This document shows, one piece after another, positions 6,501-44,729 of a DNA stretch of 64,000 bases (position 1 is its first letter; each line of letters opens with the position of its first letter). The DNA is from Puniceibacterium sp. IMCC21224. GTDB lineage: Bacteria; Pseudomonadota; Alphaproteobacteria; Rhodobacterales; Rhodobacteraceae. Under the pieces are notes generated by a model that saw nothing but the letters and a program-made list of their open reading frames with translations, ran no database searches and had not been told where the DNA came from. The translations under genes were made by a program, and so were the position numbers. The stretch is taken from assembly GCF_001038505.1 (NCBI RefSeq), contig NZ_LDPY01000001.1, forward strand, positions 3,844,001 through 3,908,000, read 5' to 3'.

Positions 6501-6615
6501 ACGCCTTGGGAACTAGTTTGGATCCAAGGCGTTCGATACCGAACCCCGTTGCATGTGCGGGTTATCACATGCACCTCCCTGTTGGACTGGCCCGGGCTCT
6601 GCCCGGGCCTTTTTT
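6501..6615 (+). ncRNA. Candidate small RNA with three stem-loops
   Basis: Three consecutive perfect hairpins lie in the intergenic stretch. The first has arms 6501-6509 and 6524-6532 (9 bp, ACGCCTTGG), the second 6550-6557 and 6566-6573 (8 bp, TGCATGTG) and the third is the terminator at 6589-6609. A single-stranded pyrimidine stretch, CACCTCCCTG, lies between hairpins two and three. This layout resembles alphaproteobacterial trans-acting sRNAs that pair through a C/U-rich loop. It could equally be the 3' UTR of the response regulator. No convincing promoter is visible, so it is a candidate only. Confidence 0.4.
6589..6615 (+). terminator. Rho-independent terminator
   Basis: A perfect 9-bp GC stem (GGCCCGGGC at 6589-6597, GCCCGGGCC at 6601-6609) with a 3-base loop is followed by six T residues. 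It would end the response-regulator transcript or the candidate small RNA before the transglutaminase gene. Confidence 0.9.
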
Positions 6616-36759: not shown

Positions 36760-37032
36760 TCAGCTCTCGATCCGAGGTGTTCCCTTGCGCTCAGATGGCT
36801 CGGAAGGGTCGGACCAGTAAACTCTGAGGCTGATTTCGCATCGCCCATCTTCGCGTTCCGCCTTGATCCTGACGTTCATCAGACCGGCGGTTTCGAGGAT
36901 CAGTTCACCGTCATCATCGCCAAGCGTCATCTTGCCTTTTGCGAACCCCTTGGCCAGCGAGGACAGCAAGCTCTTGATTGTTTTTGCGTCTTGCAAGGAC
37001 TCGTGCGTGAAACGTTTGTTCTGTTCACCCAT
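36760..37032 (-). CDS. Amphi-Trp domain protein
   Basis: A 90-residue protein matching the amphi-Trp domain family: FTHESLQDAKTIKSLLSSLA, KGKMTLGDDDGELIL, VRIKAEREDGRCEISLRVYW. This domain is named for amphipathic strands ending in tryptophan and is found with GAK-type cassettes; it has no known activity. It has a strong site (AGGAGCTGGCAC) and is the last gene of the six-gene operon, 15 bases after the phosphoesterase gene. Probably a small scaffold or carrier protein; that is inference. Confidence 0.85.
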   Translation of the reverse strand: MGEQNKRFTHESLQDAKTIKSLLSSLAKGFAKGKMTLGDDDGELILETAGLMNVRIKAEREDGRCEISLRVYWSDPSEPSERKGTPRIES

Positions 37033-37047
37033 GTGCCAGCTCCTGTT

Positions 37048-38352
37048 TCAGATCATGCGATCCGGCGCAAAATGCTTTGCCCACGGAAAGTCCCTGCTCA
37101 GACCGATCACATCTCCGGTCGGAAAGATCAAGGTTGCGCCAGCGCCGATCCCATCCAGCCCTTCGAGCTGCCGGGACGCGCGGTCCAGCGTCACATCACC
37201 TTCGAGATGCAGCAGCCCGCGTTTGGCCAGCAGACGCTGGCCCTGATGATTGTTGACATGCCCCTGTACCACCATGTGGAATCCGGCCTCATGCAATGCG
37301 GTGACACCGCGTTCGGTCAGCTTGCAATCCGAGTTGCGGTATTTGGTACGGACGAGGTTGGCCAGCGGCCCAAAATAAAACCCGAGCGCGGCGCACTCCG
37401 CCTCGGCGCGATAGCGGGCGTTGACCGCGTCGGGACCGCCCGTCACCAGCAGATCGCACATGCTGTCACACAGACCCGCATGGACAAACAGAACCGATCC
37501 GCTGTGCGCCACGACATCCATCGCCTCAAAGAACCACGCATAGGTGCCACCCGGTTCAAAGAACACGTCCTGACACTTCAGGGCGGCGGCCAGAATCTCG
37601 CGGTTGGTCATGCCGACCCGGTCGCATTGGCGGTCGAATTTTCCCAGCTTCTCGACCAGTTTGGCGATTTCCTTTTTGATGACCTTAGGACGCAACTCGG
37701 CCTGCGCGGCGGCGGCGAAACGCGTGGGCCAGTCAGGGCCAGGCAAAAGCCGCGCCTTACAAGTCAGCTCGTCCGGCAGGGCATCCAGATCGGCGGGGGT
37801 GACAAAACGGTCGAACACTTCGCGCAGCGCCGGAAGGATCTTGCGCCCCATTCGCACGAACAGATGTTCCTTGAGCGCGGTGCGCGGCCCGCGCAGCGCC
37901 GCGACGGCCATGCGCATCCGCAGATCGTGGTTCCCCGCCAGAATGTGCATGTCTGCCCCCGTAGCACGCAGCGCGGCGATCGCATCCAGCAGGGCGAGGT
38001 TGCTCGGCCCCTTGTCGAAACTGTCGCCGCCCAGCACGATCCGCGCCTGTCGGCCAAATGCTGTCAGGGCGATCTGTGCATCATCGCGCCGGATCACGCC
38101 CGCCGCACTGAGCGAGCGCAAAAAACCTTCGGCATCGGCGTGCGGGTCAGAAACAAAGATGATCGGGCGATCCGGCCAGCGCCAGCCACCATGACGGCGT
38201 GCCCGTTCGAGGCAGGCGGAAATCTGCGGCTGCGTCCCCGCCCCTGGCCACGGTTTGATCACACGCGGCAGATCGGCCAGCCGGGCATCTGCATCAAACA
38301 CCGGTGGCAAGAGGTGCCAGTCCGCGCCGGGGTCGTGTGGGATGTAATCCAA
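37048..38352 (-). CDS. Calcineurin-like metallophosphoesterase
   Basis: A 434-residue phosphoesterase with the complete dinuclear-metal motif set: FVSDPHAD (Asp and His, about residues 67-72), LGGDSFDKGP (about 107-116), LAGNHDLR (about 138-145) and the distal VVQGHVNNHQG. It should hydrolyse a phosphomonoester, phosphodiester or phosphoprotein. No signal peptide, so it is cytoplasmic. TTG at 38352 is preferred because AAAGG lies 7 bases upstream; another TTG at 38358 is possible. It sits between the histidine phosphatase and amphi-Trp genes of the cassette. Confidence 0.85.
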   Translation of the reverse strand: MDYIPHDPGADWHLLPPVFDADARLADLPRVIKPWPGAGTQPQISACLERARRHGGWRWPDRPIIFVSDPHADAEGFLRSLSAAGVIRRDDAQIALTAFGRQARIVLGGDSFDKGPSNLALLDAIAALRATGADMHILAGNHDLRMRMAVAALRGPRTALKEHLFVRMGRKILPALREVFDRFVTPADLDALPDELTCKARLLPGPDWPTRFAAAAQAELRPKVIKKEIAKLVEKLGKFDRQCDRVGMTNREILAAALKCQDVFFEPGGTYAWFFEAMDVVAHSGSVLFVHAGLCDSMCDLLVTGGPDAVNARYRAEAECAALGFYFGPLANLVRTKYRNSDCKLTERGVTALHEAGFHMVVQGHVNNHQGQRLLAKRGLLHLEGDVTLDRASRQLEGLDGIGAGATLIFPTGDVIGLSRDFPWAKHFAPDRMI

Positions 38353-38379
38353 GATCAAGCCTTTCGATACGGGCAGGCC

Positions 38380-39066
38380 TCAGTCGATCGGGTCCTCTTT
38401 AGGTGACCTGACCTTCCACTTCCCAGCCAAATGACGCCAACTACCATGACCATTGTGACAGAGTAGTAACGGTCGGGCATGAAACATCGAGAGTTTGGCA
38501 ATCTCGGCCCGATGCAGCAGTCCAAGGTGATGACAGGCATGACGAAACGACGCCCCGTGACCGACATGGATCGTCAGCAAACCCGGCTGAACCGTCTCTT
38601 GCAGGTGACGGGCGACGCGTAGGCCGGCGTCCATCAGACTCTCGGCATCCTCAAGCGGCAGGCGATAGTCGCTGTCGGATTTCCAGCCCTTTGGTGGCGG
38701 GCCGTGGCGTGGATCGTCGCGCAACACGGTCTCGATTTCCTCTGTCGTCAGGTTCGCCGCGCTGCCCATCCCGCGTTCCGCCAGCGCCGAGGTCTGTTCG
38801 ATCCTGTCCAGCGTGTAGCCGTGTTCGCGCAAACCCGACAAGATCTGTTCAGCCGTCTGCCAGGCACGCAGTTGCCGCGAGCAGTGAAGGACAGGCGCCA
38901 ACCGCAGATCATGGTCCCGGATCATCTGCGCCACGTCCCCGGCACCAGCGCGGGCCTGCACCTGACCTTGTTCGGTCAGGGGAAATGGCTGGCGGGCCGA
39001 AGGGGTGCCGCTGCGTTGGTGATAGGCGCCGTGACGCAGAAAGGCGACGTAGCCCGGTTCAGTCAT
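38380..39066 (-). CDS. Histidine phosphatase family protein
   Basis: A 228-residue member of the phosphoglycerate mutase/SixA-like family. The phosphohistidine motif LRHG is at residues 10-13. A second catalytic histidine is in TIHVGHGASFRH, and conserved arginine and glutamate lie in CSRQLRAWQTAEQI and ALAERGMG. It should remove phosphate from a protein histidine or a small phosphoester. The ATG at 39066 overlaps the end of the HPr-kinase-related gene by eight bases. Being coupled to a kinase gene, it is a plausible antagonist of that kinase. Confidence 0.88.
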   Translation of the reverse strand: MTEPGYVAFLRHGAYHQRSGTPSARQPFPLTEQGQVQARAGAGDVAQMIRDHDLRLAPVLHCSRQLRAWQTAEQILSGLREHGYTLDRIEQTSALAERGMGSAANLTTEEIETVLRDDPRHGPPPKGWKSDSDYRLPLEDAESLMDAGLRVARHLQETVQPGLLTIHVGHGASFRHACHHLGLLHRAEIAKLSMFHARPLLLCHNGHGSWRHLAGKWKVRSPKEDPID

Positions 39067-40135
39067 CCAGCAATTGCCGCCCGTGTTCAGCCAGAACGTC
39101 GAAATCGACACGGCCCGAGACCTCGGACACCCGCACATCGCCCAGTGCGGTGAGGTAGGCGGCGGGATCAGGGGTGGCACCGTTCGGTTCAAAACGCCCG
39201 TCGCGATGCTGATAGAATGGGCCCGGACTTTTCATGATTGCGCTCAGCAGATCCGCGCGCTCAGTCAATGTGACCTCGGACACAGCGGTTGGTGCATTGG
39301 TCGTGTGGCTCCAGTTCAGCACCCAGAAATCCGTCAGCGCCGCGCCATAGCAGATCCGGTCCGGCCCATAAATCTGGGGGATGAACAAATCGTGCTTGTC
39401 CTCAAGCGACCATAGATCGGCGAGCGGCATCGCCTCCAGTTCGGCCCGCCTGGCGGGCGACAGCATTCCGCGCAAGCGTGGATTGCCAATGATCGTACCC
39501 GGATTGATGCGCGGATGTTTTGGGATGCCGAGCGCCTGCGCCGGGGTGCCAGCGCGTATCAAAACCCGGTCATTGCTCATGAACTGCGCGCCGGAGATAT
39601 CCATCATCCGCAGGATCGAGGTAGATTTCCCCCCCCCCGACAGACCCGAAATCGCCAGCGTGCGCCCTTGGCGCGTCACCGCTGCCGCATGGGCCAACTG
39701 CCAGCCGTCGCGCAGACAGGCTGACAGGATCTGCGTGTTCACAAAGTTGATCACCGTGCTGACGTTCTGCCCAAGCGCCCCAAAGGCGACGGCCACGCCC
39801 GGTGCCTGAAGGAAGGTCACGCCGCTGCGGACCTTACGAACGAGTCGGGCGTCGTCAAGATCGCAGGTTGCATCCTTGCGGCCAGCCTTGCCCGGATCGC
39901 GCTGCCAGTCGGCCCATGTCGGCTCTGGCGTCAGCGTCTGATCCGGCAGCAGGTGAACGACAATGTCGCCGGGCGCCTCTGCCAGAGCGTCGGCGAAATA
40001 CGCCATCAGTTCGGCGCGAAGGGGTCCGGGGCACAACACAGTGACCGCGATTGGCCCGACGGCGATGTGAAACGGGTCGGACCCCTGCGCGGGCGCAAGA
40101 TCCAGTCGGGCCAGAACATCGGCGGCTGTCTTCAT
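39059..40135 (-). CDS. HPr kinase-related kinase (HprK-related kinase B type)
   Basis: A 358-residue protein whose second half resembles the catalytic domain of HPr kinase/phosphorylase. A conserved histidine is in LAHAAAV (residue 149), and the P-loop GLSGGGKST is at 164-172, followed by FMSNDRVLI near 185-193. The N-terminal 140 residues do not match the classic HprK N-domain. No HPr or PTS gene is near, so the target is probably not HPr. It overlaps the ATP-grasp gene by four bases and the histidine phosphatase gene by eight. The family assignment to 'HprK-related kinase B' is from memory of family names. Confidence 0.87.
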   Translation of the reverse strand: MKTAADVLARLDLAPAQGSDPFHIAVGPIAVTVLCPGPLRAELMAYFADALAEAPGDIVVHLLPDQTLTPEPTWADWQRDPGKAGRKDATCDLDDARLVRKVRSGVTFLQAPGVAVAFGALGQNVSTVINFVNTQILSACLRDGWQLAHAAAVTRQGRTLAISGLSGGGKSTSILRMMDISGAQFMSNDRVLIRAGTPAQALGIPKHPRINPGTIIGNPRLRGMLSPARRAELEAMPLADLWSLEDKHDLFIPQIYGPDRICYGAALTDFWVLNWSHTTNAPTAVSEVTLTERADLLSAIMKSPGPFYQHRDGRFEPNGATPDPAAYLTALGDVRVSEVSGRVDFDVLAEHGRQLLDD

Positions 40136-41013
40136 TGCGACACCTCTTTGACGACATGATCGGCCACCAGAGCGGCAGCATCAATCCCACATCCCTTTTG
40201 CGCGCCGCTGTAGCCGCCAAAGGCCGAGACCTCGAACACGATCGGCCCGTTGGGCGTCAGCGCGATATCGACCGTGGTAAAGGTCAGGCCAAACGGCGCC
40301 TGTGCTTTGCGACCCAGCTCGATCAGCTCTGGCGATGGCGTAAAGGGCGCGTATTTCCCGCCGGAATGGATCGTCGTGTTCCAGCTGCCGGACTGGCTGA
40401 CGCGCGCATAGGTGCAAAGGTAGGCGCCGTTCAGAAACACCATACCAAGGTCTTCGCCCGACAGTTCGGCCTTTTGCTGGATATACATCACCGGGTTGGC
40501 CACCTTGAACGCCGATATTTGCGCCGCGGCGTCCGGGGCGTCGTGATCCAGCAGGACCATCCCGCGCGCTTTGGTCGAAAACAACGGCTTGAGGACGGCC
40601 GAGCCATAGCGGTTCAACGCCGTGCGCGCGGCGGTCACATCTTCGGTGATCGTGGTGGCGGGCATCGGGATATCCGCAATGCGCAGGGTCATGGTGCAGG
40701 CCAGCCGATCCATCAGCCGCAGAACATTGACCGCGGGGCTGAAAATCCGCGCGCCTGCCGCTTCGGCCATGCGCAACATTTCCAGCCGGTCGAGCGCATC
40801 GGGGCTGTAATCCTCGGCGATTTTCTTTAGCACCAGCCCGTCCATCTGGCACAGATCCACCCCGTCGCAGATCAGCGTTCCCGCCTCAAAGTCCAGTACC
40901 GTGTTCGCCATGTCGATCACCTGGCGATAGCCCGTGCGGGACTCAATCGCATCGGCCAGCGCCTCGGTCGACCACTTGCCTGGGGTTCCGATGACCCCGA
41001 TCCTTTTAGTCAC
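40132..41013 (-). CDS. GAK system-type ATP-grasp enzyme
   Basis: A 293-residue ATP-grasp ligase related to RimK and glutathione synthetase. The central part has the nucleotide-binding segments GSAVLKPLFSTKARGMVLLD and VMYIQQKAELSGEDLGMVF, and the metal-binding strand GPIVFEVSAFGGYSG near the C-terminus. Such enzymes join a carboxylate to an amine through an acyl phosphate. The start is GTG at 41013 with AAGGATG upstream, overlapping the kinase-fusion stop by eight bases. Relatives occur with HprK-related kinase B and CofD-like genes, as here. The substrate is unknown. Confidence 0.87.
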   Translation of the reverse strand: MTKRIGVIGTPGKWSTEALADAIESRTGYRQVIDMANTVLDFEAGTLICDGVDLCQMDGLVLKKIAEDYSPDALDRLEMLRMAEAAGARIFSPAVNVLRLMDRLACTMTLRIADIPMPATTITEDVTAARTALNRYGSAVLKPLFSTKARGMVLLDHDAPDAAAQISAFKVANPVMYIQQKAELSGEDLGMVFLNGAYLCTYARVSQSGSWNTTIHSGGKYAPFTPSPELIELGRKAQAPFGLTFTTVDIALTPNGPIVFEVSAFGGYSGAQKGCGIDAAALVADHVVKEVSQ

Positions 41014-42607
41014 TGAACAGCATCCTTATGGGCAGTTTGAACCGCGCTTCGCGGCCTTCGGGCACGGCCAGCGCGGATTCGAGGACATAGCGGGCCCGCA
41101 GGATCATCCGGCGCGCGTGGTCCTGATCGACAACAAAGCGGGTCGAACTGGCGAATGATCGCGCCAGCCCCAGCGCCAGCCGGTATTCAAAGGTCTGGTC
41201 CTTGTTGCGGCGGGCGAACTTTGCCGACATGCCGTGCATTTCGGTCGCCACAGTCGCGATCCGCGCGCGGGTTGCGCTGTCCAGCACCTGAAGCCGGTAA
41301 TTCGACACCATAAACACCGACACATCCTGCACGTAATCCATATAGCGCGAGCGGTGCAGGTCGATGAACCGGATTTTCCGGGCGACGGAATCATAGATCA
41401 CGTTATCAAGATTGAAATCGCCGTGAATATAGACCGAAAACGGCGCGATGATCCGCGCTTCACGCTGCGCGGCGGCGATGATCAGTTGATCCAGACTATC
41501 GATCGTCACACCGTTCACAGTCTGTGTGCTACGGGCATACCGGCGGTGCAGCCGATAGACATCCTTTATGCGTTTGGACAATTGCTCCATCGCCTTCATC
41601 TCGGCAGGCTCATCGGTGCGGGTCTGACACCAGATATCGGCAACGGTCTTGTGCAGGGCCTTCTGCGCCTCGGCCATCGCATCGTCACTGCCGCCAAGCA
41701 CGATATCCTCAAAGGTTTCGCCCTCCAGATGCTCGATCAGCAGGGCGGCGGATTTTCCGCGCCGTTCATAGGACAGGATTTCGGGCGCGAGACCGGGATA
41801 GACAGAATTCCAGCTTTTGACGCCAACCCGCTCTTCCTTGACCTTGCGCCGCTCTCCGTCCTTGAAAACGGCTGCGACGGTTTCGCCCTTGGCATTGCGC
41901 AGGTTCACGCTCGAAATGGCACTGCCCGAACGGGTTTCAGCCAGCGGTTGCAGCTTGACCTCTTCGTCGCGTTTGACGCCGTCAAGCACACTGCGCAGCG
42001 TAAAATACCGCTCGAACTGCACCGGCTGGCCGATATTGATCGACAGCAGCGCCTCGCTGATTGCCAGCAGTGCCTCGCCCATGCGGTGGATTTCATTCAG
42101 GGTCAACAGACCATGCGCCAGATCTTCGGTATGTTTTGTACCGTGCATGTCCCGCGTGTAGGTCCGGAACAACCGGTCATGGAATTCCCCCAGTTCCGCG
42201 CGGGATTGGCCTATCTCAACCGCCAGCTTGCTATTGCGGGCCTCCATCGCCTCGGAAATGCAGGCCACCCGCTTGCGAACTCGTTTGACCGGGGCGACAT
42301 AGGCGTCTGTTCGCAGCAGCTTAGGCCGTTCGGTGCGTTCGGCATGTTCGACAGCGCGCCGCCCCAGACGTGATAACAGGTCAAGATTGCGGGCAATCGT
42401 GTCGATGCCCTGCAGCCTTAGTTTCAGCGCCTCTCCGGGTTTGCCACGCATCATTCCGGCAAGGCAGGCCTTGCGCACCCGCGCAGACAGGTTGGTGGAA
42501 TAGCCCGCCCGCTGGACCAGACTTAGCGCCGTATCCGTGTCGGGGGCCTCAAAATAGTCAGTCAGGCGCGACAATTGCCCGTCAAGTTCAGCAAGCAGGA
42601 AAGACAT
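41006..42607 (-). CDS. PhoU-like / aminoglycoside phosphotransferase-like kinase fusion
   Basis: A 533-residue protein. The N-terminal 200 residues are long charged helices with a PhoU-like heptad feel (LDGQLSRLTDYFEAPDTDTA, IDTIARNLDLLSRLGRRAVEH). The C-terminal part, from about 230, is a protein-kinase/APH fold: Lys-containing ETVAAVFKDGERRKV, catalytic loop HGDFNLDNV at 395-403 and metal-binding FIDLHRSRYMDYVQD with Asp416. It is the first gene of the operon; ATG at 42607 is chosen over GTG at 42637. A phosphate-sensing or docking domain attached to a kinase is suggested, but the PhoU relationship is judged only by eye. Confidence 0.8.
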   Translation of the reverse strand: MSFLLAELDGQLSRLTDYFEAPDTDTALSLVQRAGYSTNLSARVRKACLAGMMRGKPGEALKLRLQGIDTIARNLDLLSRLGRRAVEHAERTERPKLLRTDAYVAPVKRVRKRVACISEAMEARNSKLAVEIGQSRAELGEFHDRLFRTYTRDMHGTKHTEDLAHGLLTLNEIHRMGEALLAISEALLSINIGQPVQFERYFTLRSVLDGVKRDEEVKLQPLAETRSGSAISSVNLRNAKGETVAAVFKDGERRKVKEERVGVKSWNSVYPGLAPEILSYERRGKSAALLIEHLEGETFEDIVLGGSDDAMAEAQKALHKTVADIWCQTRTDEPAEMKAMEQLSKRIKDVYRLHRRYARSTQTVNGVTIDSLDQLIIAAAQREARIIAPFSVYIHGDFNLDNVIYDSVARKIRFIDLHRSRYMDYVQDVSVFMVSNYRLQVLDSATRARIATVATEMHGMSAKFARRNKDQTFEYRLALGLARSFASSTRFVVDQDHARRMILRARYVLESALAVPEGREARFKLPIRMLFSD

Positions 42608-42868
42608 GTTCTCTTCGACAGCGTCAGGAAGTGCCACGGTTCAGCCCATCCGTTGCGCCTGACGCGACGCCGTTCCCGCCCGGTCGGTCCCGCGTGCGGT
42701 GTTCCAGCGACCACGGTTTCAGCAGCACAGGCCGCAGACCCTTGCGGATGACAGCGCGCACCGTCGTACGTATGTTGTGTTCGGGCACCATGGTGGCATA
42801 TGCGCCCCATGCGCTTGGAATTCCAAGGTGGAATCGGGACAGTTTGGCCAGCCGGAGATGAAATTTCT

Positions 42869-44050
42869 ATGACATCCATGCATGTAGAGCGCGAACTGCG
42901 CCTTCCGGACGACCTGCGGGTTGCGCGCTCGCAGAGTGCCCCGCACCTTGGACCGCGCATCCTGTTCTTCAGCGGCGGAAGCGCCCTGAACGGCATTTCC
43001 CGCCAGCTCAAGCACTACACCTTCAACTCCATGCACCTGATCACACCCTTCGACAGCGGTGGCAGTTCGCAGGTGTTGCGCCGTGCTTTTGACATGCCCG
43101 CTGTGGGGGATCTGCGTTCGCGGCTCATGGCGCTGGCGGATGAATCCGTGTTGGGCCAGCCCGATGTCTATGCGCTGTTCAGCTACCGCCTGTCAAAGGA
43201 GGCGCCCCAAGACAAGCTGCGCGCTGAGGTCGCGCGCATCATCACGGGTAATCATCCGCTGATATCCGCCATCGCCAAGCCGATGCGCCAGTTGATCCAG
43301 TCACTCTTAAAAAGTTTTGCGGATGAGGTGCCCGACGCGTTCGATTATCGCAATGCCAGCATCGGCAACCTGATCCTTGCCGGTGGATATCTCAGCAACG
43401 GGCACGCGCTAGAGCCGGTGCTGTTCCTGATGTCAAAAATGGTGGACGTGCGTGGCACGGTACGCGCCATCGTTGACGAAAACCTTCAGCTTGGCGTCGA
43501 CCTTGCTGATGGACGCCGCATCATCAGTCAGCGTCTGATCAGCGGCAAAGAAGCCCCGCCGATCGACAGCCCGATTGTGCGATGTTTTCTGAGCGACGGC
43601 GAAAGCGCGATGCCGTCAGATCTGGTTCCGTTGCCAAAGCGGAATAGGAAGCTGATCGAACAGGCGGATGTGATCTGCTACCCACCCGGAAGCCTGTATT
43701 CCAGCGTCGTCGCCAATCTGCTGCCTGCGGGGGTCGGCAAATCCATCACCGGGCGCCGCCTTCCCAAGGTGTATCTACCCAGCCTCGGACAGGATCCCGA
43801 GGCACTCGGGCATGACCTTGCCGATCAGGTGTCAGCCATCATTACCCCGCTGCGCGCCGATGCCGGTCCTGACGTGGCGCCACGCCAGTTGATGACGCAT
43901 GTGTTATGCGACACCACATGGTCACAGTCGCAATGCGCAAATGTCACGAAACAGCACGGCATTCCCTGCCTTCGCCTTCCTCTCGGCCTTGCCGATGAGC
44001 CAAAGTACGACCCGCAAAAGGTCGCGCGGATACTCGTTTCTCTTGATTGA
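42869..44050 (+). CDS. GAK system-type CofD-like protein
   Basis: A 393-residue relative of CofD/YvcK proteins. The Rossmann-like N-terminus has the GG motif ILFFSGGSALNGIS and LITPFDSGGSS. Then come NASIGNLILAGGY, characteristic of the superfamily, and ICYPPGSLYSSVVANLLP. CofD transfers phospholactate in F420 synthesis; YvcK-like proteins bind UDP-sugars and control wall metabolism. Neither F420 genes nor wall genes are near. The ATG at 42869 has GGAG 11 bases upstream, and an ATG at 42878 is an alternative. Divergent from the six-gene operon across about 260 bases. Confidence 0.87.
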   Translation: MTSMHVERELRLPDDLRVARSQSAPHLGPRILFFSGGSALNGISRQLKHYTFNSMHLITPFDSGGSSQVLRRAFDMPAVGDLRSRLMALADESVLGQPDVYALFSYRLSKEAPQDKLRAEVARIITGNHPLISAIAKPMRQLIQSLLKSFADEVPDAFDYRNASIGNLILAGGYLSNGHALEPVLFLMSKMVDVRGTVRAIVDENLQLGVDLADGRRIISQRLISGKEAPPIDSPIVRCFLSDGESAMPSDLVPLPKRNRKLIEQADVICYPPGSLYSSVVANLLPAGVGKSITGRRLPKVYLPSLGQDPEALGHDLADQVSAIITPLRADAGPDVAPRQLMTHVLCDTTWSQSQCANVTKQHGIPCLRLPLGLADEPKYDPQKVARILVSLD

Positions 44051-44672: not shown

Positions 44673-44694
44673 AAAATCTTTCGAGAAAGATTTT
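44673..44694. repeat. Inverted repeat, 10-bp arms
   Basis: AAAATCTTTC (44673-44682) and GAAAGATTTT (44685-44694) are exact complements around GA. It touches the larger palindrome at 44694-44729, giving two hairpins in tandem before the aminotransferase gene. Confidence 0.8.
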
Positions 44695-44729
44695 GGCGCA
44701 AGAGTTTTCGTACGAAAACTCTTGCGCCA
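44694..44729. repeat. Perfect 36-bp palindrome
   Basis: Bases 44694-44711 are the exact reverse complement of 44712-44729, with TTTTCGTACGAAAA at the centre and GGCGCAAGAG/CTCTTGCGCC outer arms. It ends 33 bases before the aminotransferase ATG and so would be in its leader. It may be an operator, a transcription-linked hairpin or a mobile palindromic repeat. Confidence 0.9.

Follow-up and report, generated by a model that had tools for sequence, protein, structure and literature searches.

A GAK-type gene cassette built on a PhoU-kinase fusion, and its probable links to phosphate homeostasis, in Puniceibacterium sp. IMCC21224 and relatives

The GAK system is described in NCBIfam by four protein families (TIGR04354-TIGR04357) whose names carry no function, and we found none for it in the open-access literature under those names or model numbers, subscription literature lying outside the scope of the search. 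Here, we describe a GAK operon in a 64,000-nucleotide stretch (hereafter the window) of the genome of Puniceibacterium sp. IMCC21224, an assembly of 5.56 Mb in 9 contigs. The operon resembles the NCBIfam system in all four models and in gene order. We propose GAK to be a phosphate-homeostasis module that moves horizontally, is regulated by PhoB and runs a reversible phosphorylation cycle, a reading to which we assign a probability of roughly 0.6; that it is a phosphate or polyphosphate module in the wider sense we regard as highly probable. The main clue to function is the phosphate connection, which consists of a full PhoU fold, PHO boxes, and neighbouring Nudix, CHAD and sodium/phosphate (Na+/Pi) cotransporter genes. 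This link is the strong part of the proposal and comes mainly from relatives of the window's operon.

Several described systems share components with GAK. The LysW/LysX carrier pathway likewise has a small protein, a RimK/LysX-type ATP-grasp enzyme and a kinase, a likeness by component types, although the GAK ATP-grasp enzyme has EVS in place of EVN. Compared with PhoU, the window's copy is fused to a kinase, scores far below the equivalog cut-off and has neighbours that are not pst genes. A Streptomyces operon of ppk, pptA (CHAD) and a Nudix gene (PMC8003754) has Pho control and Nudix and CHAD companions in common with GAK; GAK operons, however, showed no polyphosphate kinase and have kinases, an ATP-grasp enzyme and an amphi-Trp protein instead. 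Mycobacterial MutT1 unites a Nudix domain with an RHG histidine phosphatase (PMC11784022), the same domain types as a SixA-Nudix fusion encoded by relatives of the window's operon, but in those relatives the domain order is reversed, and the window has no such fusion. The window has the optional CofD-like gene and only a relic of the Nudix gene that many relatives carry. By name the cassette is an ordinary GAK system, but we found no described counterpart for a module based on a PhoU-kinase and under Pho control.

Seven genes lie between positions 36760 and 44050, as a sequence-only reading of the window had proposed: six on the minus strand, of which neighbours overlap at three junctions (by 8, 4 and 8 bases) and are spaced 21 and 15 bases apart at the other two, and a divergent CofD-like gene. 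The gene and family names given in that reading, including the PhoU/APH fusion, are upheld, and all four NCBIfam models score above their curated cut-offs. The features are as follows.

36760..37032, minus strand: amphi-Trp protein, 90 amino acids; TIGR04354 65.3 bits (cut-off 31)
37048..38358, minus strand: metallophosphatase, ApaH/PPP-like, 436 amino acids, TTG start; PF00149 24.7 bits (cut-off 21.5)
38380..39066, minus strand: histidine phosphatase, branch 1, 228 amino acids; PF00300 53.6 bits
39059..40135, minus strand: HprK-related kinase B (HprK-B), a P-loop kinase, 358 amino acids; TIGR04355 284.4 bits (cut-off 200)
40132..41013, minus strand: GAK ATP-grasp enzyme, RimK/MptN/LysX-like, 293 amino acids, GTG start; TIGR04356 430.7 bits (cut-off 300)
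41006..42637, minus strand: PhoU-kinase fusion, 543 amino acids, GTG start; residues 1-204 PhoU, 207-543 APH/MTR-kinase fold
42697..42832, minus strand: relic of the 5' part of a Nudix gene, by blastn to relatives' Nudix genes
42858..42875, minus strand: weak PHO-box-like site, 11 of 14 matches
42869..44050, plus strand: CofD/YvcK-like protein, 393 amino acids, optional partner; TIGR04357 477.2 bits (cut-off 340)

For the CofD-like gene, the ATG at 42869, with GGAG upstream, is the likely start and was preferred over the start of the open reading frame at 42800. A 16-pair, terminator-like inverted repeat (44694-44729) separates this gene from a class-III aminotransferase gene. The cassette had been called complete; all seven genes are indeed present, but one of them, the CofD-like gene, is an optional member, and of the Nudix gene that leads the operon in many relatives only a relic is left.

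We compared the window with its relatives across 93 loci: the best 80 of at least 494 relatives listed by a contig scan with a 12-sequence ATP-grasp alignment, 12 further genome loci, and the window itself. All were selected via the ATP-grasp gene, and with 80 of them taken as the best-scoring they do not form a random sample; since they are mutually related, counts and p-values are guides only. The GAK genes cluster together across these loci, in the gene order seen in the window, and the co-occurrence implied by the sequence-only reading is thus confirmed. In the 80 loci whose downstream sequence extends for 5.6 kb or more, HprK-B and amphi-Trp are each present in 80, the metallophosphatase in 76 and the histidine phosphatase in 73. 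Among the 88 loci with 4 kb upstream, the PhoU-kinase is found in 87 (the sole miss, L027, is cut by a contig end) and a CofD-like gene lies near the operon in 48. Hence, the core consists of PhoU-kinase, ATP-grasp enzyme and amphi-Trp protein; HprK-B is nearly always present, the two phosphatases usually, and the CofD-like gene is facultative. Downstream sequence is shorter in the other 13 loci; in three of these, cut by their contigs (L076, L094 and L103), the histidine phosphatase follows the ATP-grasp gene directly, without HprK-B. The counts include gene fragments in L066, L069 and L077, where the metallophosphatase and/or the histidine phosphatase is reduced to such remnants; both genes are missing from L049, L058, L060 and L063, and the histidine phosphatase alone from L016, so that the pair seems mostly to be lost together. 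The PhoU-kinase gene is split over two reading frames in L087 (8363-10002) and L096 (8327-9996), and the SixA-Nudix gene of L087 is likewise in two pieces.

The PhoU part of the fusion is modelled as the two three-helix bundles of the PhoU fold. We looked at PHO boxes, which consist of two CTGTCAT repeats with a 4-nucleotide spacer (PMC3131613), in the 300 bases upstream of the first gene (Nudix, or PhoU-kinase if there is no Nudix gene) of 79 non-redundant loci, with 622 de-duplicated regions from the same loci, each upstream of another gene 200 codons or longer, as controls. A box with at least 11 of 14 matches faces the operon in 14 of the 79 loci, the window among them, and lies on the opposite strand in 1; at least 12 matches are reached in 6 loci, and the best box (13 of 14, L017) lies 86 bases ahead of the first gene. 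With other spacings from 0 to 11, only 1-6 loci have such a site facing the operon and 0-1 on the opposite strand, and the PHO heptamer outperforms all 300 permuted heptamers. In the controls, 8 of 622 regions reach 11 matches on the forward strand and 12 on the reverse, and 5 and 6, respectively, reach 12. For boxes facing the operon, Fisher p is 2.7e-9 at 11 matches and 0.0005 at 12, and for either strand (15 of 79 loci against 18 of 622 controls) it is 3e-7, values that treat related loci as independent. An earlier test ahead of the PhoU-kinase gene, in which 4 of 300 permutations reached the summed score, was superseded by this first-gene test; a Nudix gene occupies that region in 48 of the 79 loci, and the boxes seen there in L059, L061, L065 and L105 were dropped as lying inside Nudix coding sequence.

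A Nudix gene heads the operon in 57 of the 93 loci, its 3' end overlapping or touching the start of the PhoU-kinase gene. A fusion of a SixA-type histidine phosphatase with a Nudix domain is encoded in 38, either between HprK-B and the histidine phosphatase or divergently upstream (beside the CofD-like gene where present). Pfam confirms Nudix in L019, L029, L053 and L101, and both fusion domains in L071 and L104; 6 of 16 aligned fusions (L020, L021, L022, L050, L057 and L066) have lost the RHG motif and retained the Nudix part. These counts come from profiles run on all open frames of the 93 loci, where clustering had earlier given 21 loci with Nudix and 32 with SixA-Nudix genes; one protein cluster (cluster 10) proved to be the Nudix gene read in antisense, which had masked the gene.

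No intact Nudix gene is present in the window, and the 231-base gap ahead of the PhoU-kinase gene is too short for a whole one. By blastn, however, the minus strand at 42697-42832 matches the starts of relatives' Nudix genes (L032, 90.9% over 44 bases, E 8e-13; L038, 75.8% over 95 bases; L028, 71.9% over 114 bases). This match scores 62.6 bits against 32.8 bits for the best shuffled control, and none of 100 shuffles is as good. A comparison at the protein level was no better than shuffles (best E 0.0009; best of 20 shuffles, 0.001), so the relic is called from the DNA comparison. We conclude that the window's operon has lost a gene kept by most relatives. In the window, 84 bases separate the box-like site from the ATG of the relic, the same distance as between the box of L036 and the Nudix gene there. 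Elsewhere, the window's own genome has stand-alone relatives of both halves, Nudix and SixA (G000:C1:1680155-1680553 and 3261407-3261910); the SixA-like match has one stop.

The same recount found CHAD genes in reach of the operon in nine of the 93 loci, all Pfam-confirmed (L020, L022, L030, L042, L045, L047, L072, L089 and L091), of which at least L042, L045, L047 and L072 are alphaproteobacterial as labelled. As Nudix and CHAD genes thus proved more numerous than first counted, alphaproteobacterial loci included, we raised slightly the already high probability given to a phosphate or polyphosphate module. CHAD domains are polyphosphate binders (PMC6537752), and the Streptomyces ppk-CHAD-Nudix operon belongs to the Pho regulon (PMC8003754). 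According to the latter paper, ppk is most often followed by genes for PPX, Nudix, MutT and histidine phosphatase proteins, and usually not by CHAD genes. Eight of the nine CHAD loci have a ParA-like gene nearby by profile (Pfam-confirmed in L020, L022, L042 and L091); in L022, the CHAD and ParA genes are inserted between metallophosphatase and amphi-Trp. Na+/Pi cotransporter genes occur in eight of the 93 loci (Pfam-confirmed in L019 and L103), making up 4 of 104 flank proteins by Pfam. In G006, which has no GAK operon, a CofD-like gene and a Na+/Pi gene adjoin, with a small gene alone between them. In G158, where the CofD-like gene is unlinked, a transporter operon (glycerophosphodiester phosphodiesterase, solute-binding protein, permease and ATPase) is found near it, and the layout around the gene in G142 looks similar. 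Clustering of the loci revealed no further recurrent enzyme family near the operon besides the phosphate-linked genes, though clustering can miss genes.

Several observations weigh against a phosphate function. On either strand, 64 of the 79 loci have no box at 11 of 14, and 84 and 85 of the 93 loci have no CHAD gene and no Na+/Pi gene, respectively, in reach. Sequence models detect PhoU weakly (TIGR02135, 21 bits against a cut-off of 130.25); hence, we regard the protein as a PhoU-fold fusion and not as a PhoU orthologue. In the window itself, phosphate support is thin: Nudix survives as a relic, a CHAD gene was not found in the genome, the nearest Na+/Pi gene is far off (C1:1653070), and the sole box-like site is weak and overlaps the ribosome site and start of the CofD-like gene. 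By chance, 4.1 sites with at most three mismatches are expected per 64 kb, and the window has 6.

The kinases, phosphatases and hydrolases of the cassette retain their active-site motifs. In HprK-B, H149, GGGKST and ND189R are invariant in 23 sequences, and the segment with the His, the P-loop and the Asp-Arg aligns with eight true HprK proteins with an hhalign probability of 97.4 (E 1.2e-11, 55 columns), against 41.9 for a control with one unrelated P-loop protein. Pfam Hpr_kinase_C does not detect HprK-B, and in the window's genome it detects only a separate HprK at C1:966224. The histidine phosphatase has RHG, R67, E97 and H170 invariant in 21 sequences. In the metallophosphatase DxH, GGD..DKGP, GNHD, HAG and GHxN are conserved, and its likeness to the diadenosine tetraphosphatase 2dfj, weak at E 0.0021, makes it lean to Ap4A hydrolase. 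The ATP-grasp enzyme resembles RimK (5zct, E 8e-19) but has two changed segments, EVSAFGG and the loop STKARG, invariant in 12 of 12 aligned sequences. Metal ligands in RimK and MptN are D, E and N; in all 12 sequences, the N of the RimK EVN motif is replaced by S. Scores lie below the cut-offs of glutamate-ligase models (NF040720 for MptN, 126.5 of 350 bits; TIGR00768, 89.9 of 143.4). The sequence-only reading had suggested a reversible phosphorylation circuit, which these conserved kinase, phosphatase and hydrolase motifs fit; what the circuit acts on is a matter of interpretation.

The amphi-Trp protein is predicted to form a helix and four strands (best predicted local distance difference test score 85.4, other models 66-80) and carries an N-terminal motif, F-x-H-x-S-L-x-D. 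H-x-S-L precedes the helix in 80 of 87 GAK-linked amphi-Trp proteins; in the other seven, the His is kept except in L016, and His-x-Ser except in L016 and L017. In contrast, genomes lacking the ATP-grasp gene gave 12 readable amphi-Trp proteins, none of which has the motif (seven are from a phylum sample, two of these seven from genomes only 71 and 80% complete, and five from a class sample; two weak matches were left out). An eighth phylum-sample genome, G184, lacks the ATP-grasp gene only through a contig cut, and its amphi-Trp gene sits in a GAK operon. Since the motif is tied to GAK, we regard it as the likeliest candidate for a site of modification or docking, and the protein as carrier or substrate is a tentative candidate. 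Against this, L016 and L017 have Ala in place of Ser12, and L016 has Tyr in place of His10; phosphorylation strictly at this Ser or His would therefore not hold for every member. The pattern K-S/T-I-x-x-L-L may resemble the regulated serine region of HPr, which we take as a lead only.

For this strain, we infer the regulation, the role of PhoU as a sensor, the substrate and the order of steps as follows. At low phosphate, PhoB would turn the operon on, and the PhoU domain would tie the kinase to phosphate status via Pst/PhoR or Na+/Pi machinery. The kinases and the ATP-grasp enzyme may load phosphate, perhaps also an amino acid, onto a carrier, most likely the His-x-Ser segment of amphi-Trp or a small molecule that this protein binds. 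Unloading would be by the histidine phosphatase, the metallophosphatase and, in relatives, the Nudix enzymes.

The best surviving alternative, which we consider unlikely but worth weighing, is that GAK makes a phosphorylated small molecule, be it a cofactor, an osmolyte or a storage compound, which is required only under phosphate scarcity, with PhoU simply regulating the kinase and amphi-Trp as a scaffold. The kinase domain (207-543) is closest to small-molecule kinases, MTR kinase and PsiK, and the best model of the ATP-grasp enzyme after its own is the metabolite ligase MptN. Against it, clustering (with the limit given above) found no other recurrent enzyme family beyond the phosphate-linked genes, and several phosphate-removing genes exceed the needs of a simple pathway.

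Somewhat less likely again is direct remodelling or mobilisation of inorganic polyphosphate, with the metallophosphatase and Nudix enzymes as endopolyphosphatases. PPN1 and PPN2 are metallophosphatases. The CHAD, ParA-like, Nudix and Na+/Pi neighbours suit such a role, and PPN1, PPN2 and Ddp1-type Nudix enzymes are eukaryotic polyphosphatases (PMC6537752). However, the window's genome yielded no CHAD gene, the 18 scanned neighbours of free-standing Nudix and SixA relatives from three genomes included no ppk (not every neighbour being scanned), and the ATP-grasp and HprK-like proteins would have no obvious role.

We hold it improbable that GAK is a bacterial counterpart of eukaryotic phosphate signalling, writing and erasing a phosphate-rich signal on or by amphi-Trp that the kinase-fused PhoU would read. 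The eukaryotic set comprises an ATP-grasp kinase, histidine phosphatase, Nudix and metallophosphatase erasers, and a helical reader of the phosphate signal, a likeness to GAK in enzyme folds only. In PPIP5K, kinase and phosphatase halves reportedly set a phosphate messenger, and the parallel is an idea only.

The F420 lead of the sequence-only reading is not supported. Biosynthesis or tailoring of an F420-like cofactor, in which CofD would transfer a phospholactyl group and the ATP-grasp enzyme would add glutamate, draws on the CofD-like/ATP-grasp pairing and a PF01933 match, but is very improbable given that all 5 solved relatives of the CofD-like protein at E 0.01 are UPF0052/YvcK-like (best E 6.5e-32), that this protein went undetected in 8 of the 13 GAK genomes, of which some are incomplete, and that the CofF model scores 25.5 bits against a cut-off of 300.

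The system is sparsely distributed. The ATP-grasp enzyme occurs in 13 of 299 phylum-sample genomes (12 above cut-off) and 2 of 385 class-sample genomes, the window's genome being in both; the CofD-like family occurs in 6 of the 299, 5 of them among those 13. GAK is scattered over alpha- and gammaproteobacteria as labelled in the records, and five plasmid records carry the ATP-grasp gene. In two loci of one genus, L019 and L133, both flanks match at 70-75% identity, and GAK is present in L019 and absent from L133: the interval bounded by the CofD-like gene and a small lysine-rich gene measures 7.8 kb in L019, where it holds amphi-Trp to Nudix, and 365 bases in L133. This is cassette-like presence/absence, compatible with gain or loss. 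In both loci, the small lysine-rich gene (88 codons in L019) sits between the CofD-like gene and a Na+/Pi cotransporter gene. L030, labelled Enemella evansiae, an actinobacterium, has a GAK operon whose ATP-grasp enzyme is 83% identical to that of the window, and is probably a mislabelled or contaminated assembly. Elsewhere in the window, the sole Rfam match at gathering scores is the small RNA SorX at 6544-6615 on the plus strand (RF02784, 77.2 bits, gathering score 46.6).

The link to phosphate starvation makes an anonymous operon testable by a single growth-condition experiment and, if our reading is true, a PhoU domain fused to a kinase would offer a handle on how PhoU relays the phosphate signal.

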